Shown: positions 20,574 through 50,400 of the stretch, in pieces
How the letters are laid out: every line of letters begins with the position of its first letter
Numbering within the stretch: the stretch's first letter is position 1
From: Rugalucina vietnamica
Lineage: Eukaryota; Mollusca; Bivalvia; Lucinida; Lucinidae
Reading direction: 5' to 3'
Assembly (NCBI GenBank): GCA_964017185.1
Contig: OZ024877.1
Location: 4,876,006 to 4,940,005 of the forward strand
Length of the DNA: 64,000 nucleotides
Translations under genes and position numbers: made by a program
The notes under the pieces: model-generated
What the model was told of the DNA's origin: nothing
Database searches by the model: none
The model's input: the letters and a program-made list of their open reading frames with translations, nothing else

Positions 20574-20579
20574 TTATTT
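20574..20579 (-). terminator. Poly(A) signal for the leftward gene block
   Basis: AATAAA on the minus strand, about 90 bp past the protease stop codon. It would end the leftward transcript(s). Confidence 0.55.
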
Positions 20580-20668
20580 GTCCCGCTAACTGTTAATGCA
20601 CGATGAAACAGAGGATTAGGACCGTCCCTCTGTTCTCGTTTACAATGTAACTCTTAACGACAACATAT

Positions 20669-21247: not shown

Positions 21248-21249
21248 TT

Positions 21250-21867: not shown

Positions 21868-21871
21868 CTTC

Positions 21872-23176: not shown

Positions 23177-23182
23177 TTTGTT

Positions 23183-23617: not shown

Positions 23618-23624
23618 TATTAAA

Positions 23625-24470: not shown

Positions 24471-24772
24471 GATTTTACTTCTTTTGAAAGTTCGTCACTA
24501 GAAGAAGACAGAGATTGTTGTTTTCTGAATTTGAGGCCAGGTGATGGCAAAATGTACCCTATAGAACTGCTGAGTAAAATCAACCACAATTCTTTATCTG
24601 GACTTCTCAAACTGATATGAACTAGAGATGTGATGATTATCATGTATACTACAATGATCTGAGTGAAAAATGTTAAAGGATTTTTAGCTATTTTGGTTTT
24701 ACTGTCTGCAGATGATTGCACAGAAGTGTTATCACCACTGCGATTGAATGAACTTCTAAAATCCATTTTCAT
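24467..24772 (-). CDS. Polinton two-pass membrane protein
   Basis: 101 residues from the ATG at 24770-24772 (a second ATG follows two codons later; the longer frame begins with TTG). It has a polar N-terminus rich in Ser, then two hydrophobic segments, LTFFTQIIVVYMIIITSLV and ELWLILLSSSIGYILPSPG. The C-terminus is charged. A short membrane protein with the LLSSSIGYILPSP motif is common beside integrase in animal Polintons. Its function is unknown; a virion membrane or egress role is only a guess. It overlaps the penton-like gene by 4 bp and starts 4 bp after the integrase stop. Confidence 0.75.
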   Translation of the reverse strand: MKMDFRSSFNRSGDNTSVQSSADSKTKIAKNPLTFFTQIIVVYMIIITSLVHISLRSPDKELWLILLSSSIGYILPSPGLKFRKQQSLSSSSDELSKEVKS

Positions 24773-24776
24773 GCTT

Positions 24777-26692: not shown

Positions 26693-27083
26693 GATGAGGA
26701 TTGAGGAGACTTCCAAGTACTGAACCAACAATGGGAGCAAGCAAAGGTTTTAGTAATAAACCGAGCAATGCACCTCCTTTCTGATTGATAATTTTCTTTT
26801 TATCTGGCACAGACACTTGCTTTGAACTCAGTAAACGTATGTGACGTTGTCGAGCTTGCAATTTTTGTTTTTGAGCTTTTGTCAAACGGACATTGCCTTT
26901 TATAATGTTCAGGCAACATTCACCGACTGAGTCGATGACTTCTTTAGGTGAATCATTGATCATTTTTTGACGACATCTAGGTGGTAAATGAGTCAGGCCT
27001 TCAAGAAAAGAACCATACGATTTGATTAAACTTTTTTTCTTTAATATTTTTCTAGTACGACGCTTTGTTTTAGTAGCTGCCAT
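26679..27083 (-). CDS. Polinton small basic protein with adenain-like site
   Basis: 134 residues from the ATG at 27081-27083 (the open frame extends upstream only through TTG). It starts MAATKTKRRTRKILKKKS. The middle has Cys residues (PPRCRQKM, GECCLNII). The C-terminus is INQKGGALLGLLLKPLLAPI, a hydrophobic tail after QKGG, which fits the adenain consensus (M/I/L/N/Q)-X-G-G before X. Cleavage there would free a hydrophobic peptide. This matches small virion-type proteins in other Polintons. The role is inferred. Confidence 0.72.
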   Translation of the reverse strand: MAATKTKRRTRKILKKKSLIKSYGSFLEGLTHLPPRCRQKMINDSPKEVIDSVGECCLNIIKGNVRLTKAQKQKLQARQRHIRLLSSKQVSVPDKKKIINQKGGALLGLLLKPLLAPIVGSVLGSLLNPHHGRA

Positions 27084-27129
27084 GCTGATGCAATTTTGCA
27101 AACTGTGTTAAAACTTATTTGACATTGAG

Positions 27130-27137
27130 CTTTTATA
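27130..27137 (-). promoter_or_regulatory. TATA box for the 134-aa basic protein
   Basis: TATAAAAG on the minus strand, 47 bp before the ATG at 27083, directly after a 28-bp A/T run. Confidence 0.6.
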
Positions 27138-27139
27138 GT

Positions 27140-27167
27140 GTTTTTTTTTTTTTTTTTTTTTTTTTTT
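27140..27167 (-). repeat. A-tract abutting a stop codon
   Basis: About 28 T on the plus strand; on the minus strand it is a run of A that begins with the last base of the TGA of the 265-aa basic gene and ends at the next TATA box. Confidence 0.85.
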
Positions 27168-27964
27168 CAAAATAAAAGTCGTTTCTTAGCAGTTCTTCTT
27201 ACAAGTTCTTGTTTTGCTCTTTTTATTCTTTCAACATCAGAAGGAAATGCAGTTTGATCATTCATGACAAACTCTTTTGGATCTAACAAGTGCATGTATG
27301 GAATAGTTCCGTGTCGTTTCTGAAATGTAGGACTGTTTTGCATGATGTAACGTTGTTTTGAATTCAGAGGTGAAACAATTGGTTTTGGTGAAGTTCTAAG
27401 TGGTGAAAATCTTGCAATTGACAAAGACATTCGTCTTGCATTGGCATCAGGTGAAGACATTCCTAGATTTTGCCAACTTGTACCTACTGCTGGTGAATTA
27501 GGACTTACAGATTTACTTTTTTTATTTCTTCTTTTGGTCACATATTTATCATTGATACGTTTTTTGGATTTTTTGGCAGGCCTTTTTTTAGATTTAGATT
27601 TCTTTGGAGTTGATCTTTTACGTCTCAAGAGTTTAGTACCATCCCATCGAATCAAACTTCTGATAATTACACCACCAAAGAAACCACCACCGCCTGGTTT
27701 TAGAATGATACTACGTTTGACTTCTGGATCTGTCATTGCACTTGCTAATTTTCTAACATCATCTTTATGTCTATCCATGAAGTTTTTAGTTTGTTTAGGC
27801 AATTTCATTTTTCCCTCAATGATTTTACGAGCTGCTAATGAAAACCATTTGATCATTTCAGCTAAACCTGCATTAAGCAAAGTTTTTCGTTTTTGAGCAT
27901 CGTGTTCTTTGCTCAAATTGTAAAGTGCACGAATCAAGTTAGCAGATGTTTTTCCTACAGCCAT
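27167..27964 (-). CDS. Polinton basic protein of unknown function
   Basis: 265 residues, ATG at 27962-27964. It has a helical N-terminus (ANLIRALYNLSKEHDAQKR), a Gly-rich centre (LKPGGGGFFGGVIIRSL), a highly basic block (TPKKSKSKKRPAKKSKKRI) that looks like a nuclear signal and DNA-binding tail, and a Ser-Pro-rich region (SLSIARFSPLRTSPKP) suited to phosphorylation. I do not recognise a named family. The charge suggests a genome-packing (core) protein; that is inference. Its stop is followed at once by an A tract. Confidence 0.65.
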   Translation of the reverse strand: MAVGKTSANLIRALYNLSKEHDAQKRKTLLNAGLAEMIKWFSLAARKIIEGKMKLPKQTKNFMDRHKDDVRKLASAMTDPEVKRSIILKPGGGGFFGGVIIRSLIRWDGTKLLRRKRSTPKKSKSKKRPAKKSKKRINDKYVTKRRNKKSKSVSPNSPAVGTSWQNLGMSSPDANARRMSLSIARFSPLRTSPKPIVSPLNSKQRYIMQNSPTFQKRHGTIPYMHLLDPKEFVMNDQTAFPSDVERIKRAKQELVRRTAKKRLLF

Positions 27965-28000
27965 GATGACTTAACTGATCAATGTCAAACCAAACACATC

Positions 28001-28008
28001 CTTTTATA
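28001..28008 (-). promoter_or_regulatory. TATA box for the 265-aa basic protein
   Basis: TATAAAAG on the minus strand, 37 bp before the ATG, overlapping the last codons of the ATPase gene. Confidence 0.6.
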
Positions 28009-28693
28009 CGCTTGGAAAATACACAACTGGCCCTGATTGATCTGATTTTGTAAACCAATGTTGAAAAATATTTGTTCTCAATCTCAAGTAATTTGGTGTG
28101 GTTGGTTTCAAATCGATCAGTAAGTAACCATGAGGTTTTGATGTTGCATCGTTAAAGGCAGGAATCATATGTGGTGTTTGCAGTTGATTGGAAAGAACTT
28201 TGATCTGCATTTTGTCCCTTGGACTTTGGAACAAAACCAGATAATGAGCATTCAAACTAATTGTTCGAGATGCTTTGCTTTGTTGAAATAAGTTTTGTGT
28301 GATGTAGACCAAACTCGCATTTCTATGATGTCCTTTTCTCGTAAACCATAACTTAATTTTTTCTTCATCTTTGTCTCCCAACATATCGTCAAAGATGACT
28401 AAGTGTGGTACACTGACATCAGTGACGATGTCATCCTCGTCATCTGGGATGCCGAGAATGAATTTTATGTTTGATCCTTCACGTTCTTGCAGGATATTGT
28501 AGGCAGATTGCCATTCTTTGTAACACCACACAATTTGTTGTGGTTGAATGTCAAACAAATTTTCTTTGTATTCAATCATTTTCTTAACAAATTCCGTTTT
28601 TCCAGAACCACTAGGACCAGATATAAAGATATTGGCAGTATGTTTGAAGAACAAACTACCAATATCTTGTTGTAAAACTTGTATAGCCGACAT
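28004..28693 (-). CDS. ATP: Polinton genome-packaging ATPase (FtsK/HerA-A32 type)
   Basis: 229 residues. Walker A is GPSGSGKT (residues 26-33), Walker B is HLVIFDD (97-103), and a polar sensor-like motif YITQN lies at 130-134. This is the compact A32/FtsK-HerA ATPase that pumps DNA into capsids in Polintons, adenovirus-like and larger DNA viruses. It is full length for the family. It is separated from the polymerase gene by a 364-bp AT-rich gap that holds its own TATA box. Confidence 0.92.
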   Translation of the reverse strand: MSAIQVLQQDIGSLFFKHTANIFISGPSGSGKTEFVKKMIEYKENLFDIQPQQIVWCYKEWQSAYNILQEREGSNIKFILGIPDDEDDIVTDVSVPHLVIFDDMLGDKDEEKIKLWFTRKGHHRNASLVYITQNLFQQSKASRTISLNAHYLVLFQSPRDKMQIKVLSNQLQTPHMIPAFNDATSKPHGYLLIDLKPTTPNYLRLRTNIFQHWFTKSDQSGPVVYFPSV

Positions 28694-29057
28694 GACCTTA
28701 ACTGTTTAACTGTGTAACAAACTGATGAAAGAACAAGAAAGACGTGTTTTTATATGTTTTTTTAATTGCATGACAAAACAAATGTCTGCAAAAAATTGAC
28801 ATCTTGTAACCTAGAAAAAGTTTTTGCTAAAAAATTTACATCTTGTCACCTAACAATATTTTTTTAAATTAACATCAAACAATTGCAAAAAACTTTTGTG
28901 GAAACAATTTTGTGAAACATTATTTAACATTTGCAAAAACAGGTTTCGACAAAAAAAAACCTTTTTGTCAACTTGTATACTTTCTGTGTTCTATACTTTC
29001 TGTGTTCAAGTCATATCACTCTGTTCAACTTTTGTTCAGTTCATTTTTTTTTGTCTC
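28694..29057. other. AT-rich gap between ATPase and polymerase genes
   Basis: No gene. It contains the ATPase TATA box (TATAAAA on the minus strand, 28747-28754, 54 bp before the ATG). A tandem pair of related pieces, ACATCTTGTAACCTA and ACATCTTGTCACCTA, lies near 28799-28855. Confidence 0.6.
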
Positions 29058-32000
29058 TTACAAATCATATCCATAGGGTACCGTGTAACCTTTAACTAAA
29101 ACCACGCGTTTATTGTACGTGAATTTATAAGTCTTTGTTTGTTCTTCAGTGGTTACTTTCCTGTCACTGTGCTTTTTGATTCTATTGTATTTGGCAGTCA
29201 CTGAAAAGTTCCTACTTTCAGACTTTGACCATTCCAACATCTGATGGAAATGTATCAGCTGAGACGTGTTATAGTCCAGTGTCAATCCTTTCACTTTACA
29301 TGTAGATTTTCTTTGTCCATCTTTCTCCACATACTCATATCCATAGTTCTTAGGTCCCATACCAACAAATTTCACAATTCTTGCATCTGGTACTTCATCA
29401 GTCCATTCACCAAGACGATCCCCAATTTCTGGATTCCATTTATCTGGTTCGTGAACGTAGATGATTGAGTCCGTGTCAAAGTACAATACTCTTGATCCCA
29501 GTTTATCTAACTTATCGTACAATCTCAACCTGGCTTGTGCCGTCACAAATGCACCTACAACCACATTGCTACAAGTGTGAGGTTCAACAAGATTGTCTGT
29601 TTCTTCCCAGTTCACGTGTACAAACCTTTCTCCGTATATGTCTACATTCTTCACGATCTTAGATGGATTTGTTATCAGTTCAAAATATTTGGCTGGGTCA
29701 GATATGTATTCAGTCTTTGTCATTTTTTCACGCTGTGCCAGCTTACCCCACAAACTATTCAACATAATCTTGGCAATAGCTCTCAGTCCGGGATTCTTTT
29801 CTATTTCTTCTAATGAGATTCCTTCTGCTTCAAAGTAATCACGTATGAATTTTTCCTTGTCAGCTTCGGTCTTGCACCATTCGGGATAGCCACTCGATTC
29901 TTGCTTGACTTTCAAGAAGACATCGATGTACTTCGTGAAGATACCACCCTCGCCAGTTTTCTTGTCATATTGTGTCGTCTCCGGGAAATGCCACACTTCA
30001 TACACGTCCAGTAATTCATATCCTTTTTCTAATGCAGCCTTTAACTCAATGCTAACCCAAGTTCCTACAAGTGCTCTTTCGTCTTCTGAATGTGTACACT
30101 TTTGGGAGGGATCACATCTTTCTGCACAAGTTCTACATAAGGGAAACATGAGTTTATTGTTACATTTGTAAGGGAGTACGGGATGAAACAAGTCTCTAGG
30201 AGGCAATACCTTACATTTGATCAGTCCTTCATATTGTTCAATACTGTCTTTGTCCACGTTTTCTTGAGATAGGATGGTTGGATGACCCAAGGGAAACAGT
30301 CCATACTTGCATACGGTTGGGTACAGGGAACAGACGTCAATGTACTTGATTTCATCCTGTGATGTCTCGTCGATTTCATGATAGAGTTTTGTTGAATTGG
30401 TCCGGCCACCAAACAAAGCATCTCTTGGTCTCAGTGGATCTAAGTTGGTAAAGTGAGAGTCTACAGTCTTTCTGAATTCTTCGTCCTCTTTGTACTTTCT
30501 GTCATATTCACATTCCCACATCTCGATTACGAGGTATCCATTGTCTTTGAATTTCTGCATCAGGTAGTTGGTGTTAGTATACAGTTGTCCCATCGTCTGA
30601 CAGCTTTGTTTGTGAATCGTCTCTCTATCTGGGAAATGTGTTGGACAACCATGCCAGTAACATCCGTGGAACTCGTAGATAGTTCTAGATTCTCTGTGAT
30701 AACCATCCACGCAGTGTCCACATATCCTAGCTTCTCCTCCATTCAGTGCATGTTGTATCTCTATATCTTGTTCCTTTGCTATACTTTGAATCCATCTCAC
30801 TGCTTTGATCGAGTAGTTTTTCTGGTTTGGATATCCTTCTGGAGGAATGATGGCAACACAATTTTCAGGCATGTAGTTCTTTCTCCAGACTTTGGAACAG
30901 GCTTGGGCAATCGTACAGGATTCCATCAAAGGATCTAAACCACTGATATCTTTCAGGATCTTTCTGAAACTCCCGCATCCACGCCTCAATATATCCACAT
31001 CACTCCGACAATATTCTTCCATCTCTCGTCTAAAGTCAAAGATCGTTCCAGACTCTACTTTTTCGTTGTACCATTTGTAAAATTCGGTCCTATCCTTTTC
31101 TGACATCTGTCCGGGCATGTACATCTCTGCAGGGAAGTAAGGTCCTACATAGTCCTGATTGGCTTGTGTATTGGCAAGATGAGGAAAGTAGCCTTTCTTC
31201 ATTTCTTTCAATCCAAATGTCTTTGGGAAATTGGCAAGTCTCATATGCAGGAACAAGTACGAGTCCAGGAATGTCACTTTGCCTATTCTCATTCTCATGA
31301 TCGTGTTTCCATTCATGATCACGTCAGGTTTCATTGTCCCATTTTCCAAGATGTGTCTCAAGATAAACTGTCCATCGTATCCACCAAAGTTATGAGCTAT
31401 ACAAGTCACTCCTTTATTATCATCTCCCAGTATCCAAGCGCAAAATCTAGATAGCGTATCTGTTCCTTCGAAGATAACTTCTCGTCCCCCTGGTAACGTG
31501 CTGCAACCTGGACAATATTCATCGCTAGGCAGATCTATGCAGTAATCGCAAGCTCTTTGTGCCACGCAAAAGTTGACTTGATGTTCTCCAGTTTCTTGTG
31601 ATGACTCGAAATCGAAGAAGACGAATTTCGGACCAGTACTTGTTTTCTCTTCATCTTCGCTTTCCTCGGCATCTGAATCTGCAGCCTTAGATACATTTTT
31701 CTTAGATACATACTTCTGAATGTAGCATTGATGATTTGGACCTACAATTTCCTTACAGATCTTACACTTTCTATTACCAGGACATACATGATTCTTTTTG
31801 TTACCAACGATACGACGTGAACACTTTTCACAATTGTATACAAGTTGACAAATAGATTTCTTCTGATTACCCTTAATTGCCTTATGATTATCAAAACAAT
31901 TTTGACTCTTAAAAGTTCTCTTACAATCAACACATTTGACTTTCTGTCCAGGTATACATGGAATGTCACTATAGCAACCATCACATCCATCACTGCATCG

Positions 32001-32359
32001 ATGATCTCCTCGTTGATTGTACCCAGTATCGCAATACTCGCAGTAGTATGAACACCCCATCAGTCCCGTCACCTTGGTTACAGTATCGTAGTGTTTGTCC
32101 CCATTCCAGTACAGATGTATGACTTTCGTCTCTCGTTTTTTCTTGAATTGAAGTGGAAAGATCAGTCCATCCTTAGGATGTTGTGAATGGACTTTGATCA
32201 GGTAGTCTGGAGCCAATACAGCCTGAATCTTCTTGTACTCCTCAATGCCACAGACTTGGTCGTGAGGAATCTTAGCTTGGTCCAGTAACTTCTTTGCTTC
32301 CCGAGTCTGCATTGGACGATCAGAGTACTTAATGTTTTTCCAGTTTTTCTGCCAAGTAT
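29058..32359 (-). CDS. POLB: Polinton protein-primed DNA polymerase B, exon 2
   Basis: Main exon, 1,099 complete codons plus two bases plus stop. Order: a Cys/His-rich zinc-finger region (CSYYCEYCD to about CYIQK, some twenty Cys), 3'-5' exonuclease motif VFFDFESSQ (near 31613), AHNFGGYDGQF (Exo II), polymerase motif A DVCSLYPT (near 30330), motif B KIMLNSLWGKL (near 29765) and motif C YFDTDSIIY (near 29470). It would copy the element from protein-primed ends. Exon 2 starts at 32359 after a TTTTCAG acceptor, in phase with exon 1. The joined product is about 1,311 residues. No further intron or break is seen. Confidence 0.95.
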
Positions 32360-32524
32360 CTGAAAATGGAAATTGTGAAAAAACTAAACAATCAAGTACT
32401 AAGAAAACATTTCTTTGGATCTTTTTTCAATAGACCTCAGTTACTCAAAACTTATGAAAGCGTACATCAGGTGCAAACATATAATCATGTTTAAGGTTTA
32501 AATTAGTTTTTACAAGATTCTAAC
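32360..32524 (-). other. Phase-1 intron in the polymerase gene (165 bp)
   Basis: GT at 32524-32523 and AG at 32361-32360 on the minus strand, with a pyrimidine-rich acceptor. Without removal, exon 1 meets TAG at 32520-32522. With removal the frames match exactly. Confidence 0.85.
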
Positions 32525-33158
32525 CTGAATCGTCTTTGTCAGCATTACATTTCCCCACCACCACAGCTCTGGCCATACACATCACATCGTCAGTGTTGTT
32601 GATCTGGACAATACTTCGTTTGTTCTGTCTCATGGTCTCTGACTCGAAGTACAGTCCATGGTGAAGTGGTTTTCTTCTTCCAGCACCAGTAGGGAGACTA
32701 CATGTTGTCACATCAATTCTCATCTGTCCATCGTTGATCTTGAAATTGTCATTGGATTGCATCACTTTCTCAATTTCTTGTAGAATGATTTCTCCAGTCA
32801 ACGAGGACACATCACGCCATGTCACAAATACTCCCAACTTCAAGCCTGGATGGTTGACAGTCATACGGATTTTGTCATCGTCTGCCACTTTACACTGTAT
32901 CTTGATAGCTTCCACCAAATCGTCAAACAGCTTTGGAACAAACTCTAGTGGTGACACATCTTCAGGAAATTTCTTTACATCCACTTCGTAAATTTTGGCT
33001 TTCGATCTGAACAATCTAGATTCAGTCTCTCTCTTCAGCTTGATATCAAAATATTTGTCATCAGACACTTTCTGCCTTTTGCCGGGTGGTGGCCTCATCA
33101 TCTCATCTTCACTCTCTTCGCTATCGGAATAATCTACAAGTCTTCGTTTATTTGCCAT
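32525..33158 (-). CDS. POLB: Polinton DNA polymerase B, exon 1 (N-terminal region)
   Basis: 211 codons and one base. It starts at ATG 33156-33158; the frame extends upstream only through TTG. The N-terminus is basic, then acidic (VDYSDSEESEDEMM) with a nuclear-signal-like PPPGKRQKV. Then comes the conserved Polinton polymerase N-terminal region: GEIILQEIEKVMQSNDNFKI, RKPLHHGLYFESETMRQNKR, SIVQINNTDDVMCMARAVVV. In other Polintons this block is fused directly to the zinc-finger/exonuclease part. That is why the 165-bp gap is read as an intron and not as two genes. Confidence 0.88.
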
Positions 33159-33182
33159 GTTGACTCTTCGAAGTTTATTCAA

Positions 33183-34212
33183 TGAATGAATTCAGAATAC
33201 CAGATTCTCTCAGCTTATATACCTAGGGACGCGACATGACAAATTTTTAGTCAAATGTTGTCTCGCCTGACAGCAAGAAATATGGCCAGTCTCACAACTG
33301 ATCGACCTTGTTGGTCTACCACAAATCCCCAGCTATCATATTGGGATTACCCTGCACTTCAGAATCCCTGGCGAGATGAAGATATCCACTGCAAGTGAAA
33401 CACCCGAATGTGAACCATGCACCGGACTGTTTCTGAGGCGGGGCCTATTACAATTCTCTAGCCAAGCTAGCGCCCTTAGATGTGGCCTGATATATCATTC
33501 CACACCCCTGCCTCTAAATGCTTGTTCAATATCTTCATATCTACGGGCTGAAGCGGTATAACCTTCCAAATAACTGGTAACTCTGAGCTGAGCTAATTTT
33601 GAGAAGTTGTGAAAAACTATATATAGGGATCAATTTGTCCTGTGTAGTAAAATTGGGTTTGAGTATTTGCATGGACTAGTAAAACATTTTTTTCTATGAA
33701 AGTAAGTCAACAGCTATGATAATTTACATAAAAATAATTATGACAATAAGTTTAAAACATGTTACAAAAAATTTCATGTTGATACAAAGTCAAATGGTAA
33801 AGCTATTAAGATACTAAAGTTAATATTTACATATAACGTTTACAAGGGAAACAACTGTGTTGTAACTGAAAATAACAAGTATAAGCTTTTAAAAAAATTA
33901 CTTCTAAACTACTTATCCGATTTACATAATTCTTTTTGCATATGGTAGGATATCTCAAATACGTTAAATTTCAAAATTAAATTTCGCGCCACTGCGCATG
34001 CGCGAAATAGAAAAGTAAAATTTAGAAATTAAAATTTACAGTAACTTTATTATGACTTGATCGATTCTCGAAATTCTTTTTGCACATGTTTCAGTATTTC
34101 GTAACGTTCCTATTTTGAAAATAATTAATTACGTATTGCGCATGCGCAAACGTATGCATAAGTATTATTACTGCTATATAAGACAATTTCCCACTATTCA
34201 TTTTGTAGAATC
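33183..34212. promoter_or_regulatory. Divergent control region between leftward and rightward Polinton genes
   Basis: No gene longer than 60 codons is convincing here. Leftward: TATATAAG (33214-33221, minus strand), 56 bp before the polymerase ATG. Rightward: TATATAAG at 34175-34182, 31 bp before the ATG at 34213. Two NRF1-like palindromes, TGCGCATGCGCG (33993-34004) and TGCGCATGCGCA (34137-34148), precede the rightward TATA. NRF1 sites are known in host promoters of proliferating cells; their use here is inference. Confidence 0.6.
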
Positions 34213-34917
34213 ATGGCTCAAGTCTACATACCACCAGAAATCCAAGAAGACATTTTCAGCTACTTGATGTATTCGTCTGCAAAAGGACTTGCATTCAAAT
34301 GGAACATACAAGAGGCGTGGTTTAAAGTCAACTTCCCAAGACTACAGAGAGCTTTGTCTACAAGATCTCGGGAAACTTATCACAGAGAATTGGTGCGAAT
34401 GTTATTGGACATAGATCAAATGCCAAACCTGACCGATGAAATGAGAACGAAGTTCCACACGGCAATTTATGACTTACATAAACGTAAGTTATTTACACTG
34501 ACATCATCCAGACTGTGGCGAGTAGCATGGCCATTTTATCGTGATCTGGGTATAGAACCATTACTTCATCACGACTTAAAGGACCATTTCATGACAGGAT
34601 ACATTTCTGCGGGAAGTAGTACGTACCATGGATATGTGTTACTCAATCGTGAAATGAATAGATATCAAGTCCATAAATTATTAGGTGGCACACAGTTATT
34701 GTTCTTAAGAATGTTGGGAATAACCAAATCAACATTTCATATTAGACCTGAGAGTGAACGTTGCTTGAATTGGAGACTGTTAGACAATATAAAGCACGAA
34801 GACGGAGACATGGTATCATTTGGAAACTGGAAGTTGTTCGAGACACAAGCAGATAATCAAGTTACTTTGCAGTATCCAACAAGTTATTCCAGATACCTGC
34901 TCGGATATACATCATGA
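34213..34917 (+). CDS. Rightward Polinton protein, 234 aa, unknown (weak F-box-like start)
   Basis: First rightward gene, ATG at 34213. It has no family that I can name. The first 25 residues, with IPPEIQEDIFSYL then a hydrophobic stretch and FKWN, look somewhat like an F-box (LPxEIxxxIFSYL), but no substrate-binding repeats follow, so this is a weak hint only. The rest is mixed alpha/beta with many Arg and aromatic residues. The last four bases, ATGA, overlap the start of the next gene. It has its own TATA 31 bp upstream. Confidence 0.65.
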   Translation: MAQVYIPPEIQEDIFSYLMYSSAKGLAFKWNIQEAWFKVNFPRLQRALSTRSRETYHRELVRMLLDIDQMPNLTDEMRTKFHTAIYDLHKRKLFTLTSSRLWRVAWPFYRDLGIEPLLHHDLKDHFMTGYISAGSSTYHGYVLLNREMNRYQVHKLLGGTQLLFLRMLGITKSTFHIRPESERCLNWRLLDNIKHEDGDMVSFGNWKLFETQADNQVTLQYPTSYSRYLLGYTS

Positions 34918-35300
34918 ATAGCATTACAAAGAGTCTACCCGTATGTTTGGACCAGATCTTACAGTTTGACGTGTATAAGTGTGCTTTGCAACAGACTTTG
35001 TCATTAGAACCAACCGATGCTGAATTCTTGAAAACAAGAGAAGGTATCAATATGTGGTTGAACAGATTGGAAACATTTGGTACTTTCAAATATTGGTGCA
35101 GAAAAATTGCAAATGAAATGTGGAGACTCATTGATGACAGTCCGATAACTTATCTCCACTGGCTAACTCACGTTGCCAATAACGACGGCGTGATTTCTCA
35201 TCTAGACTCTATACTGACAGATATTCGAAGAGATTGTGAGGAGGAAGATATGGAATATGAAGATCTCATTTCTGCAATCGACAAACTGACACTGAACTGA
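34914..35300 (+). CDS. Rightward Polinton protein, 128 aa, unknown
   Basis: The ATG at 34914 overlaps the previous stop as ATGA, so both are probably read from one mRNA. No TATA box is seen before it. Mostly helical, with Trp/Tyr patches (NMWLNRLETFGTFKYWC) and an acidic C-terminus (RRDCEEEDMEYEDL) ending DKLTLN. The last five residues KLTLN are the same as those of the next gene. The function is unknown. Confidence 0.65.
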   Translation: MNSITKSLPVCLDQILQFDVYKCALQQTLSLEPTDAEFLKTREGINMWLNRLETFGTFKYWCRKIANEMWRLIDDSPITYLHWLTHVANNDGVISHLDSILTDIRRDCEEEDMEYEDLISAIDKLTLN

Positions 35301-35303
35301 GCG

Positions 35304-35310
35304 TATAAAA
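35304..35310 (+). promoter_or_regulatory. TATA box for the CCHC protein
   Basis: TATAAAA just 4 bp after the previous stop codon and 48 bp before the ATG at 35358. Confidence 0.6.
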
Positions 35311-35357
35311 ACTGGAAGAACAGACTCACATTATCATTTCTAATCTGAACAAGCAAC

Positions 35358-36107
35358 ATGTCACAAGATCCAAGAAAAGAAAAATTCAATGACCCAAAGA
35401 GTATCTACTATCAACATCGATCATTGATGAAAGGTACCTTTACGCATGCTGCGCCAGGGTATAAAGTCGGTGACACAGACTCACAGAATCATTCTACTTC
35501 AAATCGTCAAAGAGTAAACATGGATTCAACTATGAGCAGTGAGACTAAGAGTATCTACTACCACTTCATATCTTTGAAGAAACTTCTCACTACAGATGAA
35601 GTTCAACAGCTAAAACCATTAGAAGATATGCTGAGGGCACAAGGAAAACTTGTTCCACCTTTTGGACAATGTTACTACTGTAAAGAAACAACACACTGGG
35701 CCAGCGATTGTTTGAAACTAAAGCTTGCTAGAGAACAACCAGATGGAAAACCAGCACATGGACAATGTTTCAAGTGCGGTTCGTTTGATCACTGGGCTTC
35801 AAAGTGTCCACAGAAAGATGAGACAAAACCAGAGAAAATTTCAACATCAACTGAATCAACTGCAGTGGTGGAAAAGACAAACAAACGAAAGCGAATGTGT
35901 GACGAAGATGTGCCAGAGCCAACTCCAAGCAAGCAGCGAAAAGTAGAGAAGACAGCTGAGCCAAAGAAGACGAAACGAAGGATTCCTAAGAGGAAATATT
36001 GCTTCATCTGTAAATCAGAGACTCATGATGCTAAGAACTGTGACGAAATTGTTCTTGATCCAGAAGAAGAGCTGAAGAAATCATTAAGTAAATTGACATT
36101 GAACTGA
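35358..36107 (+). CDS. Rightward Polinton protein with three CCHC zinc knuckles
   Basis: 249 residues. It has three C-X2-C-X4-H-X4-C knuckles: residues 105-118 (CYYCKETTHWASDC), 137-150 (CFKCGSFDHWASKC) and 215-228 (CFICKSETHDAKNC). The first two are near copies. Between the second and third are two basic nuclear-signal-like blocks (KRKR at 176-179; KKTKRRIPKRK at 203-213). The N-terminal part has an internal echo (KSIYYQHRSL and KSIYYHFISL). Such knuckles bind single-stranded nucleic acid, as in retroviral nucleocapsids. A role in replication, RNA handling or packaging is possible but not shown. It ends SKLTLN, like its neighbour. Confidence 0.8.
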   Translation: MSQDPRKEKFNDPKSIYYQHRSLMKGTFTHAAPGYKVGDTDSQNHSTSNRQRVNMDSTMSSETKSIYYHFISLKKLLTTDEVQQLKPLEDMLRAQGKLVPPFGQCYYCKETTHWASDCLKLKLAREQPDGKPAHGQCFKCGSFDHWASKCPQKDETKPEKISTSTESTAVVEKTNKRKRMCDEDVPEPTPSKQRKVEKTAEPKKTKRRIPKRKYCFICKSETHDAKNCDEIVLDPEEELKKSLSKLTLN

Positions 36108-36441
36108 TTTTTAAGTTGTGAAATGTGACTGTTGTCAAAATGTTCTAAGAGACTGTATTAGTCAAATAATTCTAGAGACTATATTATTCAAATGTGTTTA
36201 CTTAAAAATTGTTTGTACAAATTAAAATTGAAAAAATGTTTTATTGTGTTAGTTGTTTCTTACAATGGTATTCTTTCTGGAGATTTGGTAGTCATGAAAT
36301 ATTGGTCATTATACAAGTTAGTAACATTATTACAAAGATATTCTTTCTGAAGAAATGGTCAGCAAATTTCTTACAAAGATATTCTATCTGAAGATTTGGT
36401 CATTACCAATATTACAAAGGTATTCTTTCTGAAGATTTGGT
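36108..36441 (-). repeat. Imperfect tandem repeats beside the 58-aa gene 3' end
   Basis: On the minus strand, four diverged copies of a block with CAGAAAGAATA or close variants follow the 58-aa gene stem-loop (near 36421, 36376, 36339, 36262). The farthest block is preceded by TTTCATGACTACCAAATC, a decayed form of the stem-loop 3' half. It looks like a duplicated 3'-end region. A weak poly(A)-like ATTAAA at 36221-36226 (+) may serve the CCHC gene. Confidence 0.6.
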
Positions 36442-36457
36442 AGTCCTGAAAAGGACT
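36442..36457 (-). terminator. Histone-type 3' stem-loop of the 58-aa gene
   Basis: Minus strand AGTCCTTTTCAGGACT: a 6-bp perfect stem with TTTC loop, the shape and loop of replication-dependent histone mRNA ends. It lies 26 nt after the stop. GAAAGA follows 12 nt downstream (36424-36429), like the histone downstream element. Confidence 0.75.
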
Positions 36458-36483
36458 GTTTGGTCATGAGAGACAAGAGATTC

Positions 36484-36660
36484 CTAAGGTTTTCGAGGCA
36501 TTGGTCGTACAATAGCTACTGGTTTGCAGTAACCAATACCTCTTCTGGCCAAAAAAATCTGTATCCCCATCTTGTTTTGTTGCCTCTCAATTTCCCGATA
36601 ATCTTTTTTGTGAAAAGCAGCACACAATTTCCTCAAACTGAATTTTTCAAAGAACCCCAT
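36484..36660 (-). CDS. Small basic 58-aa Polinton protein
   Basis: Short intact frame, ATG at 36658-36660, TAG at 36484-36486. It starts MGFFEKFSLRKLCAAF and ends VAIVRPMPRKP; MG could be a myristoylation start, which is a guess. It is strongly basic with no known domain. Support for a real gene comes from context: a TATA-like CTATATAA (36697-36704) 37 bp before the ATG, the shared AGGATTGACCTACTTT motif with CCAAT upstream, and a histone-type stem-loop 26 nt after the stop. Both neighbours with the same promoter motif have the same 3' end type. Confidence 0.65.
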   Translation of the reverse strand: MGFFEKFSLRKLCAAFHKKDYREIERQQNKMGIQIFLARRGIGYCKPVAIVRPMPRKP

Positions 36661-36695
36661 AGTTCCAGAATGTACAGAGAGGCACAGAACACGAT

Positions 36696-36775
36696 GTTAT
36701 ATAGTCAATGACTAGGATTGACCTACTTTTAATCAGAACCAATCAAATGCGTTTTGATCAGAACCAATGAGAAGT
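36696..36775 (-). promoter_or_regulatory. Promoter of the 58-aa gene (shared module, copy 1)
   Basis: Reading leftward: two ACCAAT boxes (near 36738 and 36763; the second in GAACCAATGAG), the 16-bp AGGATTGACCTACTTT (36714-36729 as written on plus), then TATA at 36697-36703. The same motif recurs at 37413-37445 and 37515-37547. Confidence 0.65.
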
Positions 36776-36877
36776 TCACATACGATCACGCCACAAAGAT
36801 CACACCATAACCGTAAGACAACACATATACATCATAAATATATTAATAAAAGTTATTTCAATCGGAAAGAAATGTGT

Positions 36878-36893
36878 GGCCCTGAAAAGGGCC
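36878..36893 (-). terminator. Histone-type 3' stem-loop of the 148-aa gene
   Basis: Minus strand GGCCCTTTTCAGGGCC, a match to the histone consensus GGYYCTTHTHAGRRCC, 27 nt after the TGA/stop at 36921. The flanks (AAC before, ACACA after) also fit animal histone genes. No purine-rich downstream element is clear here. Confidence 0.8.
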
Positions 36894-36920
36894 GTTGGGT
36901 GGAACTTAAGCCACAGATGA

Positions 36921-37367
36921 TTAGGAGCAGGCACAGTATCTACTCCCACAGGCAGGGCAGCGCTGTCCCCAACGATCAAACTTGACCGTTCTGTAGGCAG
37001 GAATCGAAAGATTCCTGCCTTCAAAACTATAGGACGGTTCGTTTGCCTCGGCATCCCAATCTTCAGTCTGTTCACTGTAGTTATGACCGGGCCTGTCATC
37101 ATCCCAGTCTTCCTCAGATACAATTGGTGACAACGCCTCCCTCTTTATCTCCGTCTTCTCTACAACCCGTCCTCCATGAGCTAAATTCATAGCACTTCTT
37201 GTCATACTGATCATGGACTTCAGATTTTCTACCGTCCGCTGCAAGGACTCAGCGCTGTTCTTGAAAGTATTAATAGCTTCCAACATGCTGGTAGCCGCCC
37301 CACCAATACTGTCTGCCTGCTCCTCCAAAGCTCTTAAGTAGCACTCACAGTCAAACTGTTTTGCCAT
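36921..37367 (-). CDS. Polinton 148-aa coiled-coil/zinc-ribbon-like protein
   Basis: ATG at 37365-37367 (upstream in frame only a GTG). Start MAKQFDCECYLRALEEQADS, then a long heptad-like helix (about residues 10-65), an acidic Trp-containing part (SEEDWDDDRP, EDWDAEANEP), and a C-terminal Cys cluster CPACGSRYCACS that could bind zinc. No named family is known to me. It is expressed from one side of a bidirectional promoter (TATAAAAG at 37413-37420, minus strand) and ends in a histone-type stem-loop. Confidence 0.72.
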   Translation of the reverse strand: MAKQFDCECYLRALEEQADSIGGAATSMLEAINTFKNSAESLQRTVENLKSMISMTRSAMNLAHGGRVVEKTEIKREALSPIVSEEDWDDDRPGHNYSEQTEDWDAEANEPSYSFEGRNLSIPAYRTVKFDRWGQRCPACGSRYCACS

Positions 37368-37412
37368 TTTGTTGTACACGAGAATAGTGTACAGAACTGC
37401 AAAATGCGTTTG

Positions 37413-37547
37413 CTTTTATACTCTCTGGGGGGATTGGCCTACTTTAAACTTCAAACCAATCAGAAGGTCCTGTATAAGTAACAAATCACAGCCGACTTTA
37501 CAAACATGAGACAGAAAGTAGGTCAATCCTCTCAGTGAGTATAAAAG
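37413..37547. promoter_or_regulatory. Bidirectional promoter, two mirrored 33-bp arms
   Basis: The left arm (37413-37445) and the reverse complement of the right arm (37515-37547) agree at 29 of 33 positions. Each arm carries TATAAAAG at its outer end and (A/G)TTG(A/G)CCTACTTT-type sequence at the inner end. The left TATA serves the 148-aa gene, the right one (37540-37547) the Gln-rich gene 40 bp on. ACCAATCAG lies just inside the left arm. Confidence 0.75.
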
Positions 37548-37586
37548 CTTAGCTCAACAGTCCAAGTTTTACATACATGTTCAGTC

Positions 37587-38009
37587 ATGGCTTCGAATCA
37601 AATCAGCTTCGACGATATGATTAACAACCCAGACATATTACTGCAAGCATGTAATGAAGTCTTTACTAATGACACTGCAACTACACAACAGCAGTACTAT
37701 CAACAACCAGTACAAGCGGTTTCTCCTTACTAGCAACAGACATCACAGTTGCAGCAACAACTGCAAAGAACACAGATAATAGATGTCTTGGTTAAAGAAC
37801 TCAATGAGTTGAAATCCAAAGTCAAACAACTGGAAGAAGAAGTACAGCGACAAGCTCAGATGCCAAGCATACAGTTCCCTGCGATCAGAATGCCTATCAG
37901 ATTAGACATCATCAATACCGACCAACCGGCTACATCATCTCCAGCTGTAGGATTAGGCATAGCTAAGAAAGAAATACAAGCAACCAAGCGAAAGAAGACT
38001 ACAAAATAA
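37587..38009 (+). pseudogene. Gln-rich coiled-coil protein with an in-frame TAG at codon 49
   Basis: From ATG 37587 the frame reads MASNQISFDDMINNPDILL, then a Gln/Tyr/Thr-rich part, to TAG at 37731-37733. The same frame stays open for 91 more codons with a Gln-rich stretch, a leucine-heptad helix (VLVKELNELKSKVKQLEEEV), and a basic tail ending KRKKTTK, to TAA at 38007-38009. The codon context is TAC TAG CAA; neighbours are CAG/CAA, so a CAG-to-TAG change is simple. Regulated readthrough is a second option, since TAG followed by CAA favours it. A histone-type stem-loop follows the distal stop by 26 nt, so the whole 140-codon region was the original gene. Confidence 0.65.
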
Positions 38010-38035
38010 ATTCAGACTTCACAAAATACTCAAAC

Positions 38036-38051
38036 AGCCCTTTTCAGGGCT
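38036..38051 (+). terminator. Histone-type 3' stem-loop of the Gln-rich gene
   Basis: AGCCCTTTTCAGGGCT, perfect 6-bp stem and TTTC loop, followed by ACCA. GAAAGA (38065-38070) lies 13 nt downstream, like the U7-binding histone downstream element. It lies 26 nt after the TAA stop. Confidence 0.8.
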
Positions 38052-38083
38052 ACCAACTATTTCTGAAAGATAACCTTGATTTG

Positions 38084-38323
38084 CACATTACTTAAAGTCC
38101 CTGTCTTAACTCAAGGATACTTACCTACACATGCAACTTAGCTAGTTCATTATTAAAAGTGAGACCCAGGGTGCGCGGTATAGGCCAAAACTTATAGGCC
38201 AAAACTTATAGGCCAAAACTTATGGGCCAATTCTGCCGCTACGCTTAACAGAATTGGCCCATAAGTTTTGGCCTATAAGTTTTGGCCTATAAGTTTTGGC
38301 CTATACCGCCCACCATTACTACT
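38084..38323 (-). repeat. Polinton right terminal inverted repeat (240 bp)
   Basis: Inverted copy of 19922-20161, no difference seen by eye, with the same near-terminal hairpin (38175-38309). It is followed by the target duplication GATGGT at 38324-38329. Confidence 0.95.
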
Positions 38324-38800
38324 GATGGTTGTAGGCTTTATAGTTTATGAGATATTAAGAGTTGGCTTCAAAAATGACAAAGTCACTAGAGCACGAAATA
38401 TAGGTCAAGGTCACTAGATCAATGTGGGTGCAAAGTCGGGACATCGAGGAGAAGCCATATGCAAGGTTTGATGGTTATAGGCTTTATAGTTGATGAGATA
38501 TTAAGGGTTGGCTTAAAAAATGACAAAGTCACTAGAGCATGAAATATAGGTCAAGGTCAGTAGGTGAATGTGGGTGCCGAGTCGGGACATCGAGGAAAAG
38601 CCATATGCAAGGTTTGATGGTTGTAGGCTTTATAGTTGATGAGATATTAAGGGTTGGCTTCAAAATGACAAAGTCACTGGAGCTTGAAATATAGGTCAAG
38701 GTCAGTAGGTCAATGTGGGTGCCGAGTCGGGACATCGAGGAGAAGCCTTATGTAAGGTTTGACAGTTCTAGGCTTTACAGTTGATGAGAAACTAACACAG
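38324..38800 (+). repeat. Tandem repeat, period about 146 bp (right part)
   Basis: Continues the array interrupted by the Polinton; about three units, then decays near 38800. Confidence 0.85.
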
Positions 38801-44380: not shown

Positions 44381-44449
44381 AACTACAGCTGGGGTTAATT
44401 CTCAAAAATGGAGACATTCTCTCGATCGGGAGACACTGCCATAGAGTGT

Positions 44450-47400
44450 AAGGTAGCAATCCACAGTTTTAGGAGCATTTTTCAGTTAATTTTGCTAGAT
44501 CCGCCAAAATTGATAATAGCTCTGTCAAATCTGGTGAACAATCCGATTTCTCCCATAAAATCATTAAATCAAATGTCTAACAACAAAATAACATCATTTA
44601 GATTGCCTAGAACTGACTATCACCCTACCTGTATTGGGGATATTTTCCCCTACCCCCTCTTTCAGACCAGTGAATTTTCGTAAAATATGCCTGAAGTCTG
44701 GGCCCCCATGCATATTCTGTGCAAAAGGAAGCCCCATAGACCTCATGCAAATACTTAGAGAATCGACCCAGGATCATAATGAGCAGTGCACAAATATGTG
44801 CCATCCATCTACTTTTTTCGCTATTTGTGAACAAAGATAACCCCTGCAAAAACGACAGTGAAGAGCGTCACCGGCTATGACTGGCGAACGATCCGGGATC
44901 CTTATATAATCCCGGTTTTTACCAGTCTAAAAATAGAAAATAAGTATTTTTCACATGTTTGAGGCATAATTGATCCGATTTGGGGAAAGATGTCGGCAAA
45001 TTATTGAAAGATGATAATTTACAGCCCAATTTCATGCCCTACCCCTTAATATTGAAATTTTTGGCCCACCTCAAAAGTACGAAACTGTGAATGGAACCTT
45101 AAAGCAAAACCTTTTGCTCTAGTTTCTGGCAATTTTCGTCTAAAACTATTCTTTAACATAATTCCAATTAAATTCAGGCAAAGAAAGTGGATTTGCATTA
45201 AAACTGGCCTTTCAGGAGGATTCAGAACGAGTCATATGCTTTCGAGGCATTTTTAGGTCGATTTTTGAGGAATGGAGCCCCAACTAACCGCATCCAGCTT
45301 TACTCACTCTGTGGTCGTGCGAGTGACCAAAAGATCACGAAACAGTTATGTCCATATATTGGGCCACCTGATCAAAGAAAACTGAGACCTTGAAATGGAA
45401 ATTAAAAAAATCGGTTATTGCTTTAAGGTAGCAATCCACAGTTTTAGGAGCATTTTTCAGTTAATTTTGCTAGATCCGCCAAAATTGATAATAGCTCTGT
45501 CAAATCTGGTGAACAATCCGATTTCTCCCATAAAATCATTAAATCAAATGTCTAACAACAAAATAACATCATTTAGATTGCCTAGAACTGACTATCACCC
45601 TACCTGTATTGGGGATATTTTCCCCTACCCCCTCTTTCAGACCAGTGAATTTTCGTAAAATATGCCTGAAGTCTGGGCCCCCATGCATATTCTGTGCAAA
45701 AGGAAGCCCCATAGACCTCATGCAAATACTTAGAGAATCGACCCAGGATCATAATGAGCAGTGCACAAATATGTGCCATCCATCTACTTTTTTCGCTATT
45801 TGTGAACAAAGATAACCCCTGCAAAAACGACAGTGAAGAGCGTCACCGGCTATGACTGGCGAACGATCCGGGATCCTTATATAATCCCGGTTTTTACCAG
45901 TCTAAAAATAGAAAATAAGTATTTTTCACATGTTTGAGGCATAATTGATCCGATTTGGGGAAAGATGTCGGCAAATTATTGAAAGATGATAATTTACAGC
46001 CCAATTTCATGCCCTACCCCTTAATATTGAAATTTTTGGCCCACCTCAAAAGTACGAAACTGTGAATGGAACCTTAAAGCAAAACCTTTTGCTCTAGTTT
46101 CTGGCAATTTTCGTCTAAAACTATTCTTTAACATAATTCCAATTAAATTCAGGCAAAGAAAGTGGATTTGCATTAAAACTGGCCTTTCAGGAGGATTCAG
46201 AACGAGTCATATGCTTTCGAGGCATTTTTAGGTCGATTTTTGAGGAATGGAGCCCCAACTAACCGCATCCAGCTTTACTCACTCTGTGGTCGTGCGAGTG
46301 ACCAAAAGATCACGAAACAGTTATGTCCATATATTGGGCCACCTGATCAAAGAAAACTGAGACCTTGAAATGGAAATTAAAAAAATCGGTTATTGCTTTA
46401 AGGTAGCAATCCACAGTTTTAGGAGCATTTTTCAGTTAATTTTGCTAGATCCGCCAAAATTGATAATAGCTCTGTCAAATCTGGTGAACAATCCGATTTC
46501 TCCCATAAAATCATTAAATCAAATGTCTAACAACAAAATAACATCATTTAGATTGCCTAGAACTGACTATCACCCTACCTGTATTGGGGATATTTTCCCC
46601 TACCCCCTCTTTCAGACCAGTGAATTTTCGTAAAATATGCCTGAAGTCTGGGCCCCCATGCATATTCTGTGCAAAAGGAAGCCCCATAGACCTCATGCAA
46701 ATACTTAGAGAATCGACCCAGGATCATAATGAGCAGTGCACAAATATGTGCCATCCATCTACTTTTTTCGCTATTTGTGAACAAAGATAACCCCTGCAAA
46801 AACGACAGTGAAGAGCGTCACCGGCTATGACTGGCGAACGATCCGGGATCCTTATATAATCCCGGTTTTTACCAGTCTAAAAATAGAAAATAAGTATTTT
46901 TCACATGTTTGAGGCATAATTGATCCGATTTGGGGAAAGATGTCGGCAAATTATTGAAAGATGATAATTTACAGCCCAATTTCATGCCCTACCCCTTAAT
47001 ATTGAAATTTTTGGCCCACCTCAAAAGTACGAAACTGTGAATGGAACCTTAAAGCAAAACCTTTTGCTCTAGTTTCTGGCAATTTTCGTCTAAAACTATT
47101 CTTTAACATAATTCCAATTAAATTCAGGCAAAGAAAGTGGATTTGCATTAAAACTGGCCTTTCAGGAGGATTCAGAACGAGTCATATGCTTTCGAGGCAT
47201 TTTTAGGTCGATTTTTGAGGAATGGAGCCCCAACTAACCGCATCCAGCTTTACTCACTCTGTGGTCGTGCGAGTGACCAAAAGATCACGAAACAGTTATG
47301 TCCATATATTGGGCCACCTGATCAAAGAAAACTGAGACCTTGAAATGGAAATTAAAAAAATCGGTTATTGCTTTAAGGTAGCAATCCACAGTTTTAGGAG

Positions 47401-50400
47401 CATTTTTCAGTTAATTTTGCTAGATCCGCCAAAATTGATAATAGCTCTGTCAAATCTGGTGAACAATCCGATTTCTCCCATAAAATCATTAAATCAAATG
47501 TCTAACAACAAAATAACATCATTTAGATTGCCTAGAACTGACTATCACCCTACCTGTATTGGGGATATTTTCCCCTACCCCCTCTTTCAGACCAGTGAAT
47601 TTTCGTAAAATATGCCTGAAGTCTGGGCCCCCATGCATATTCTGTGCAAAAGGAAGCCCCATAGACCTCATGCAAATACTTAGAGAATCGACCCAGGATC
47701 ATAATGAGCAGTGCACAAATATGTGCCATCCATCTACTTTTTTCGCTATTTGTGAACAAAGATAACCCCTGCAAAAACGACAGTGAAGAGCGTCACCGGC
47801 TATGACTGGCGAACGATCCGGGATCCTTATATAATCCCGGTTTTTACCAGTCTAAAAATAGAAAATAAGTATTTTTCACATGTTTGAGGCATAATTGATC
47901 CGATTTGGGGAAAGATGTCGGCAAATTATTGAAAGATGATAATTTACAGCCCAATTTCATGCCCTACCCCTTAATATTGAAATTTTTGGCCCACCTCAAA
48001 AGTACGAAACTGTGAATGGAACCTTAAAGCAAAACCTTTTGCTCTAGTTTCTGGCAAGTTTCGTCTAAAACTATTCTTTAACATAATTCCAATTAAATTC
48101 AGGCAAAGAAAGTGGATTTGCATTAAAACTGGCCTTTCAGGAGGATTCAGAACGAGTCATATGCTTTCGAGGCATTTTTAGGTCGATTTTTGAGGAATGG
48201 AGCCCCAACTAACCGCATCCAGCTTTACTCACTCTGTGGTCGTGCGAGTGACCAAAAGATCACGAAACAGTTATGTCCATATATTGGGCCACCTGATCAA
48301 AGAAAACTGAGACCTTGAAATGGAAATTAAAAAAATCGGTTATTGCTTTAAGGTAGCAATCCACAGTTTTAGGAGCATTTTTCAGTTAATTTTGCTAGAT
48401 CCGCCAAAATTGATAATAGCTCTGTCAAATCTGGTGAACAATCCGATTTCTCCCATAAAATCATTAAATCAAATGTCTAACAACAAAATAACATCATTTA
48501 GATTGCCTAGAACTGACTATCACCCTACCTGTATTGGGGATATTTTCCCCTACCCCCTCTTTCAGACCAGTGAATTTTCGTAAAATATGCCTGAAGTCTG
48601 GGCCCCCATGCATATTCTGTGCAAAAGGAAGCCCCATAGACCTCATGCAAATACTTAGAGAATCGACCCAGGATCATAATGAGCAGTGCACAAATATGTG
48701 CCATCCATCTACTTTTTTCGCTATTTGTGAACAAAGATAACCCCTGCAAAAACGACAGTGAAGAGCGTCACCGGCTATGACTGGCGAACGATCCGGGATC
48801 CTTATATAATCCCGGTTTTTACCAGTCTAAAAATAGAAAATAAGTATTTTTCACATGTTTGAGGCATAATTGATCCGATTTGGGGAAAGATGTCGGCAAA
48901 TTATTGAAAGATGATAATTTACAGCCCAATTTCATGCCCTACCCCTTAATATTGAAATTTTTGGCCCACCTCAAAAGTACGAAACTGTGAATGGAACCTT
49001 AAAGCAAAACCTTTTGCTCTAGTTTCTGGCAATTTTCGTCTAAAACTATTCTTTAACATAATTCCAATTAAATTCAGGCAAAGAAAGTGGATTTGCATTA
49101 AAACTGGCCTTTCAGGAGGATTCAGAACGAGTCATATGCTTTCGAGGCATTTTTAGGTCGATTTTTGAGGAATGGAGCCCCAACTAACCGCATCCAGCTT
49201 TACTCACTCTGTGGTCGTGCGAGTGACCAAAAGATCACGAAACAGTTATGTCCATATATTGGGCCACCTGATCAAAGAAAACTGAGACCTTGAAATGGAA
49301 ATTAAAAAAATCGGTTATTGCTTTAAGGTAGCAATCCACAGTTTTAGGAGCATTTTTCAGTTAATTTTGCTAGATCCGCCAAAATTGATAATAGCTCTGT
49401 CAAATCTGGTGAACAATCCGATTTCTCCCATAAAATCATTAAATCAAATGTCTAACAACAAAATAACATCATTTAGATTGCCTAGAACTGACTATCACCC
49501 TACCTGTATTGGGGATATTTTCCCCTACCCCCTCTTTCAGACCAGTGAATTTTCGTAAAATATGCCTGAAGTCTGGGCCCCCATGCATATTCTGTGCAAA
49601 AGGAAGCCCCATAGACCTCATGCAAATACTTAGAGAATCGACCCAGGATCATAATGAGCAGTGCACAAATATGTGCCATCCATCTACTTTTTTCGCTATT
49701 TGTGAACAAAGATAACCCCTGCAAAAACGACAGTGAAGAGCGTCACCGGCTATGACTGGCGAACGATCCGGGATCCTTATATAATCCCGGTTTTTACCAG
49801 TCTAAAAATAGAAAATAAGTATTTTTCACATGTTTGAGGCATAATTGATCCGATTTGGGGAAAGATGTCGGCAAATTATTGAAAGATGATAATTTACAGC
49901 CCAATTTCATGCCCTACCCCTTAATATTGAAATTTTTGGCCCACCTCAAAAGTACGAAACTGTGAATGGAACCTTAAAGCAAAACCTTTTGCTCTAGTTT
50001 CTGGCAATTTTCGTCTAAAACTATTCTTTAACATAATTCCAATTAAATTCAGGCAAAGAAAGTGGATTTGCATTAAAACTGGCCTTTCAGGAGGATTCAG
50101 AACGAGTCATATGCTTTCGAGGCATTTTTAGGTCGATTTTTGAGGAATGGAGCCCCAACTAACCGCATCCAGCTTTACTCACTCTGTGGTCGTGCGAGTG
50201 ACCAAAAGATCACGAAACAGTTATGTCCATATATTGGGCCACCTGATCAAAGAAAACTGAGACCTTGAAATGGAAATTAAAAAAATCGGTTATTGCTTTA
50301 AGGTAGCAATCCACAGTTTTAGGAGCATTTTTCAGTTAATTTTGCTAGATCCGCCAAAATTGATAATAGCTCTGTCAAATCTGGTGAACAATCCGATTTC

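Follow-up and report, generated by a model that had tools for sequence, protein, structure and literature searches.

To our knowledge, histone-type mRNA 3' ends are hardly ever met outside replication-dependent histone genes, and this locus raises the question of what three putative ends of this type are doing behind three small genes of a mobile virus-like element. The genes lie in the 64-kb stretch of DNA that was analysed as a whole (the window). We consider it quite probable that the three genes, which encode non-histone proteins, form one histone-style, S-phase-linked regulon carried by this element. The element itself, 18.4 kb long, is a Polinton, identified by TIRs, a 6-bp TSD, a polymerase, an integrase, an ATPase and a weak adenain match. 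Its features and the neighbouring gene outside the proposed set are as follows.

19922 to 38323, no strand: whole Polinton, from TIRs, TSD and Pfam gene content
19916 to 19921 and 38324 to 38329: TSD GATGGT, 6 bp, on both sides of the Polinton
19922 to 20161, plus strand: left TIR, 240 bp, 100% complementary to the right TIR
20669 to 21247, minus strand: adenain-like protease, weak match (Pfam PF00770, 0.0031, under the Pfam cut-off)
24777 to 25847, minus strand: integrase with rve core and chromodomain (Pfam PF00665, 6.4e-13; PF00385, 6.7e-7)
28004 to 28693, minus strand: A32/FtsK-like packaging ATPase (Pfam PF04665, 3.4e-5)
29058 to 32312, minus strand: type B DNA polymerase (Pfam PF03175, DNA_pol_B_2, 2.3e-49)
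35358 to 36107, plus strand: zinc-knuckle protein, a neighbour gene without hairpin (Pfam PF00098, 1.4e-7)
38084 to 38323, minus strand: right TIR, 240 bp, identical to the left TIR

The polymerase is presumably protein-primed, judging from its family. Two ORFs of 434 and 281 aa were named candidates for the double jelly-roll major and single jelly-roll minor capsid proteins of Polintons by their size and place, and they showed no informative profile match. The identity of the two TIRs suggests that the insertion is young. The Polinton sits inside a 146-bp host tandem repeat (19243-19926 and 38323-38789), and in the host flanks a GT92 glycosyltransferase, an EGF fragment and a reverse transcriptase were recognized, a content that suits an animal, possibly a mollusc. 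Each TIR exhibits a large internal palindrome with 66-bp arms (98%) and 14-bp repeats (19931-20075, 38170-38314); miRNA-like Rfam matches in the TIRs were put down to these palindromic repeats and dropped. At 44449-56299, some 12 copies of a unit of ~975 bp form a long tandem array, which contains a 323-bp sub-duplication and gave no Rfam match at gathering score.

The three genes adjoin the right TIR, with 32 nt between the gene-3 hairpin and that repeat.

36484 to 36660, minus strand: gene 1, ORF for a small basic protein of 58 aa, stop TAG
36442 to 36457, minus strand: gene 1 hairpin AGTCCT TTTC AGGACT (Histone3 match 36416-36462, 29.1 bits)
36921 to 37367, minus strand: gene 2, ORF of 148 aa, stop TAA
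36878 to 36893, minus strand: gene 2 hairpin GGCCCT TTTC AGGGCC (Histone3 match 36853-36898, 33.1 bits)
37587 to 38009, plus strand: gene 3, in two pieces, stop TAA at 38007-38009
38036 to 38051, plus strand: gene 3 hairpin AGCCCT TTTC AGGGCT (Histone3 match 38031-38076, 33.9 bits)

The original prediction had described hairpins with perfect 6-bp stems and TTTC loops on the coding strand of three different small genes, 26-27 nt past the stop codons. The positions, stems and loops were all correct, and the distances from stop to hairpin are 26, 27 and 26 nt for genes 1, 2 and 3, respectively. Gene 3 calls for a qualification: an in-frame TAG at 37731-37733 breaks the gene in this copy, and what precedes the hairpin is thus the latter of two frame pieces. 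Among 27 relatives of gene 3, 17 have lengths of 139-146 aa and read through the position of the TAG.

A scan with the Rfam histone stem-loop model, which had been proposed as a check, gave Histone3 (RF00032) matches spanning the full model length at exactly these three sites. The E-values over the element were 1.5e-6 for gene 3, 3e-6 for gene 2 and 9.1e-5 for gene 1, and the search in E-value mode on the whole element (E up to 1) showed no further site. The gathering score of 34, however, was not reached by any of the three, with 29.1 bits clearly under it, and a default Rfam scan of the window therefore lists no Histone3. Histone-type 3' ends have a 6-bp stem and a 4-nt loop, UUUC or UUUA. 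SLBP recognizes a hairpin with a G-C second pair, a U-A closing pair, a UUUC loop, an A/C-rich 5' flank and a stem followed by ACC(A) or ACA. All three sites showed the 6-bp stem, the TTTC loop, the G-C second pair and the U-A closing pair, and they also carry these flanks on both sides. The agreement over the full model and in the flanks, together with the hairpins encodable in protein relatives and the shared promoter, both described below, supports the predicted reading as histone-type 3' ends. Stem pairs 1 and 3 differ on both sides among the three copies with the pairing intact, as had been claimed; the conclusion drawn from it, selection on structure, is a weak argument alone with three copies, although it is in line with the other evidence.

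Three copies of the core CCTTTTCAGG are present in the window, where 0.17 are expected (largest count in 100 shuffles, 2), and GGCCCTTTTCAGGGCC with up to three mismatches occurs twice against 0.14 expected, a count of two that is also reached by 2 of 100 shuffles. The window contains four hairpins with a perfect 6-bp stem and a TTTC loop; three are the gene-end hairpins and the fourth (37000-37015, minus strand) falls within the reading frame of gene 2. For at least three of four such hairpins to lie, on the coding strand, within 60 nt past the 19 ORF ends, the chance is ~1.2e-6. Among the 16 remaining ORFs counted, none has a perfect 6-bp hairpin with a 4-nt loop within 60 nt of its stop.

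The three hairpin genes were also found to share an upstream motif, which is new here and goes beyond the first observation. The promoter elements are as follows.

36715 to 36727, minus strand: gene 1 promoter motif AGTAGGTCAATCC
36696 to 36703, minus strand: gene 1 TATA box TATATAAC, 11 nt past the motif
37431 to 37443, minus strand: gene 2 promoter motif AGTAGGCCAATCC
37413 to 37420, minus strand: gene 2 TATA box TATAAAAG, 10 nt past the motif
37517 to 37529, plus strand: gene 3 promoter motif AGTAGGTCAATCC
37540 to 37547, plus strand: gene 3 TATA box TATAAAAG, 10 nt past the motif

Exact copies of AGTAGGYCAATCC were observed three times in the window, each upstream of gene 1, 2 or 3 only, and the distances from the motif start to the ATG are 67, 76 and 70 nt, respectively. 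With up to two mismatches, five copies were found against 1.83 expected, and 4 of 100 shuffles reach five. The two extra copies, each with two mismatches (at 19421 and 38704), lie within the 146-bp host tandem repeat and are probably due to chance. No promoter motif was present within 300 nt upstream of the other 16 ORFs counted. Because AGTAGGYCAATCC, a spacing of 10-11 nt and a TATA box are common to genes 1 to 3 only, these genes look like one co-regulated set. Together with its 5' neighbour, the motif reads AAGTAGGTCA in two cases (36715-36727, minus strand; 37517-37529, plus strand), which we take to resemble a monomeric nuclear-receptor site.

Behind the hairpins, GAAAGA had been reported for two of the genes 12-13 nt further on, and it was present at the following positions.

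36424 to 36429, minus strand: GAAAGA, purine-rich downstream element of gene 1, 12 nt past the hairpin
38065 to 38070, plus strand: GAAAGA, purine-rich downstream element of gene 3, 13 nt past the hairpin

In gene 2, no GAAAGA was found in the region after the hairpin. A bivalve study describes the palindrome close to the stop in its histone mRNAs, with purine-rich elements in a subset of them, according to the accessible part of PMC6210712, and the lack of the element in gene 2 is therefore not decisive. The sequence CAGAAAGAAUA would be a candidate pairing site for the host U7 snRNA. The GAAAGA-like units of gene 1 continue in a 41-bp tandem repeat on the minus strand (36328-36441), in which a unit beginning with ACCAAATCTTCAGAAAGAATACC recurs behind the hairpin; TRF counted 2.8 copies, whereas about four were seen by eye, to ~36262, and the farthest of these contains an apparent decayed hairpin arm, also by eye.

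Conventional poly(A) signals also lie downstream of the three genes, with AATAAA 238 nt past the stop of gene 1 and ATTAAA 187 nt past that of gene 2 and 142 nt past that of gene 3, so that polyadenylation of these genes is possible. Like the missing GAAAGA of gene 2 and the Histone3 scores under the gathering score, these signals count against U7 cleavage of the three ends. The neighbouring zinc-knuckle gene has ATTAAA 113 nt past its stop. These signals bear on the alternative that the hairpins are true SLBP-bound histone-type ends serving mainly as compact, poly(A)-independent 3' ends, without meaningful S-phase control, and that the downstream poly(A) signals may also be used. Such an explanation would suit the crowded right end, where ~150 nt separate the second hairpin from the promoter motif of gene 1, and it would suit an element in which poly(A) signals are sparse, since only 5 of the 16 other ORFs have AATAAA or ATTAAA within 400 nt; the presence of a signal downstream of all three genes fits the supplementary use of polyadenylation. 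The shared special promoter, however, argues for common timing and not for compactness alone, and the flanks that have been kept, with a purine element in two of the three genes, are as expected of true processing. We regard the compact-end explanation as a minor possibility and prefer the S-phase-linked regulon.

Database searches with the three proteins showed that they are conserved. For gene 1, 33 of 34 candidates were relatives, for gene 2 72 of 100, and for gene 3, searched with its second piece, 27 of 38; the largest clusters of relatives have 382, 118 and 112 members for genes 1, 2 and 3, respectively, the one of 382 being a single cluster of gene-1 relatives. The hairpin and promoter in these relatives were read by back-translation of the proteins, which is blind to silent changes and to the silent side of the stem. 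Over the three genes pooled (n = 132), 15 relatives have a tail of at least 10 residues past the alignable region, and these were listed regardless of motif. Judged from tail lengths, 6 of them can reach the hairpin zone; the other nine, of which all but one belong to gene 2, diverge early from the family sequence and end before that zone. The 10-nt core alone fitted 5 proteins in back-translation against a shuffle mean of 2.7 (largest 8), which is not significant, and the full 16-nt test was therefore used.

The complete hairpin NNNCCT-TTTC-AGGNNN was encodable in four of the six tails that reach the hairpin zone, namely P0065 (gene 2), P0094 (gene 3), and P0129 and P0132 (gene 1). These four proteins are 60-73% identical to the window protein, and they stay alignable up to a point no more than 3 residues from where the family normally ends. 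In controls, the 16-nt hairpin fitted 15 of 6000 open 26-codon stretches drawn at random from the window and, for each tail, 1 to 11 of its 3000 shuffles. The remaining two tails are those of P0059, which is frame-shifted earlier and reaches the zone with a changed loop, and P0111, which has unrelated sequence there. The tail of P0094 continues, by eye, into residues fitting TCTGAAAGA.

Upstream extensions of at least 15 residues were present in 11 of the 33 gene-1 relatives. Nine of them fitted the motif with zero or one mismatch (three with none), followed exactly 11 nt on by TATATAAC, the same spacing as in the window. P0107 fitted the motif without the TATA box, and P0108 fitted neither part of the promoter; in the control, 0 of 3000 stretches fitted both. 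The relatives share descent, and their counts are thus not independent events. At the DNA level, searches of IMG/VR with the capsid ORF, PolB, integrase and the gene 1 and gene 2 alignments gave pattern matches, none of them confirmed as relatives, and a search of GTDB contigs with gene 1 gave no stretch confirmed as a relative.

The hairpins might instead have arrived on a captured fragment of a host histone gene, been copied among the three genes and persisted as a neutral leftover, and two observations would agree with such a history: the 48 nt around the hairpins of genes 1 and 3 share 75% identity, and the downstream repeats of gene 1 occur without an intact hairpin. A neutral copy would not be expected to change stem pairs 1 and 3 on both sides and keep the pairing, nor to remain encodable in relatives at 60-73% protein identity, nor to hold its distance from the stop constant at 26-27 nt in the window, and we consider this origin improbable.

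Hairpins near gene ends are known in other DNA viruses, for example in mimivirus transcripts, but generic transcription-end palindromes of that kind, or chance, are a highly improbable source of the present ones, whose loop (TTTC), closing pair (U-A), second pair (G-C) and flanks are all as in the histone model, as the Rfam matches attest. In IMG/VR, the hairpin pattern gave 242 sites in 240 stretches among the matches listed, 102 of them fully paired; these sites look like chance. Among the 102 paired sites in the matches listed, three have an ACCA-like flank, three a purine element and one has both, so that the full arrangement is rare by chance.

The proteins of genes 1 to 3 showed no histone match in Pfam, PHROGs or NCBIfam, where gene 3 was queried as its two pieces in Pfam and through its relative P0073 in PHROGs and NCBIfam. 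Neither solved structures nor profile libraries pointed to a function for any of the three. The lowest E-values in these searches, for a RecN match to P0073 (E 0.0014, NCBIfam) and a match to a stathmin-like domain (E 0.0035), were both read as coiled-coil similarity. By eye, the gene 2 protein has a helical-looking first half, an acidic middle and a C-terminal CPxC...CxC, and the gene 3 protein is Q-rich with a coiled-coil-like stretch and a basic tail. These features of genes 2 and 3 would suit nuclear regulators.

Returning to the S-phase-linked regulon, each of its units would consist of AGTAGGYCAATCC, 10-11 nt, a TATA box, a single short frame and a histone-type stem-loop just past the stop, with a U7-type purine element after the hairpin in two of the three genes. 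We infer from this layout that the host SLBP and U7 snRNP would cut the pre-mRNA a few nt past the hairpin. The resulting mRNA would have no poly(A) tail, would be exported and translated with SLBP, and would be degraded at the end of S phase. The element would thereby gain three short proteins, perhaps nuclear regulatory ones, only during host DNA replication. Alternatively, the timing may be that of the early embryo and germ cells, which would be rich in SLBP. It also seems likely, though somewhat less so than the regulon itself, that an animal Polinton lineage carries a cell-cycle regulon of this kind, with one promoter type and a histone-type 3' end, tied to S phase through SLBP and U7 and producing poly(A)-minus mRNAs. 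If true, this would be a natural takeover of cell-cycle control at mRNA 3' ends by a mobile virus-like element, exerted on three unrelated genes, and the timing of gene expression in some animal Polintons would become testable. Poly(A)-selected RNA-seq could miss such transcripts.

LXCXE is a motif associated with Oncoids, and none was seen by eye in the proteins of genes 1 to 3. The adintovirus-type 'Oncoid' accessory genes resemble the present ones, as far as the accessible sections of PMC11071296 go, in encoding short accessory proteins of unknown fold and, for gene 2, in the cysteine pairs. Oncoids are defined there solely by short linear motifs, which are not listed in those sections, and the term 'stem-loop' is absent from that paper.

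The element agrees with Polintons/Mavericks and adintoviruses in its TIRs, 6-bp TSD, type B polymerase, rve integrase with chromodomain, ATPase and adenain-like protease, the last by a weak match here. It differs from them in its histone-type mRNA ends, which we did not find described for these elements. The original prediction had known of no Polinton of this type, and the open-licence literature agreed: no paper was found in which 'Polinton' and 'histone stem-loop' occur together, and among the matches listed, such mRNA ends are described in none of the titles and abstracts of the open-licence Polinton, Maverick, adintovirus and virophage literature, nor is such a case in those on viral histone stem-loops. 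PMC8097293 uses neither the word histone nor the word stem-loop. As of 2021, no Polinton particles of animals had been observed, according to the accessible part of the same paper.

In metazoans, the replication-dependent histone mRNAs carry this hairpin instead of poly(A); SLBP increases during S phase, at the end of which histone mRNA is degraded, as described in the available sections of PMC12775136. The genes studied here share with these mRNAs (RF00032) the 16-nt UUUC hairpin, its flanks and its location near the stop, and with their genes the TATA promoters and, in two of three cases, the purine element, as far as the accessible sections of PMC5011920 and PMC6210712 describe them. Compared with Histone3, two of the three hairpins have A-U as the first stem pair and all score under the gathering score. 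Furthermore, in contrast to the replication-dependent histone genes, genes 1 to 3 encode non-histones and are carried on a mobile element.
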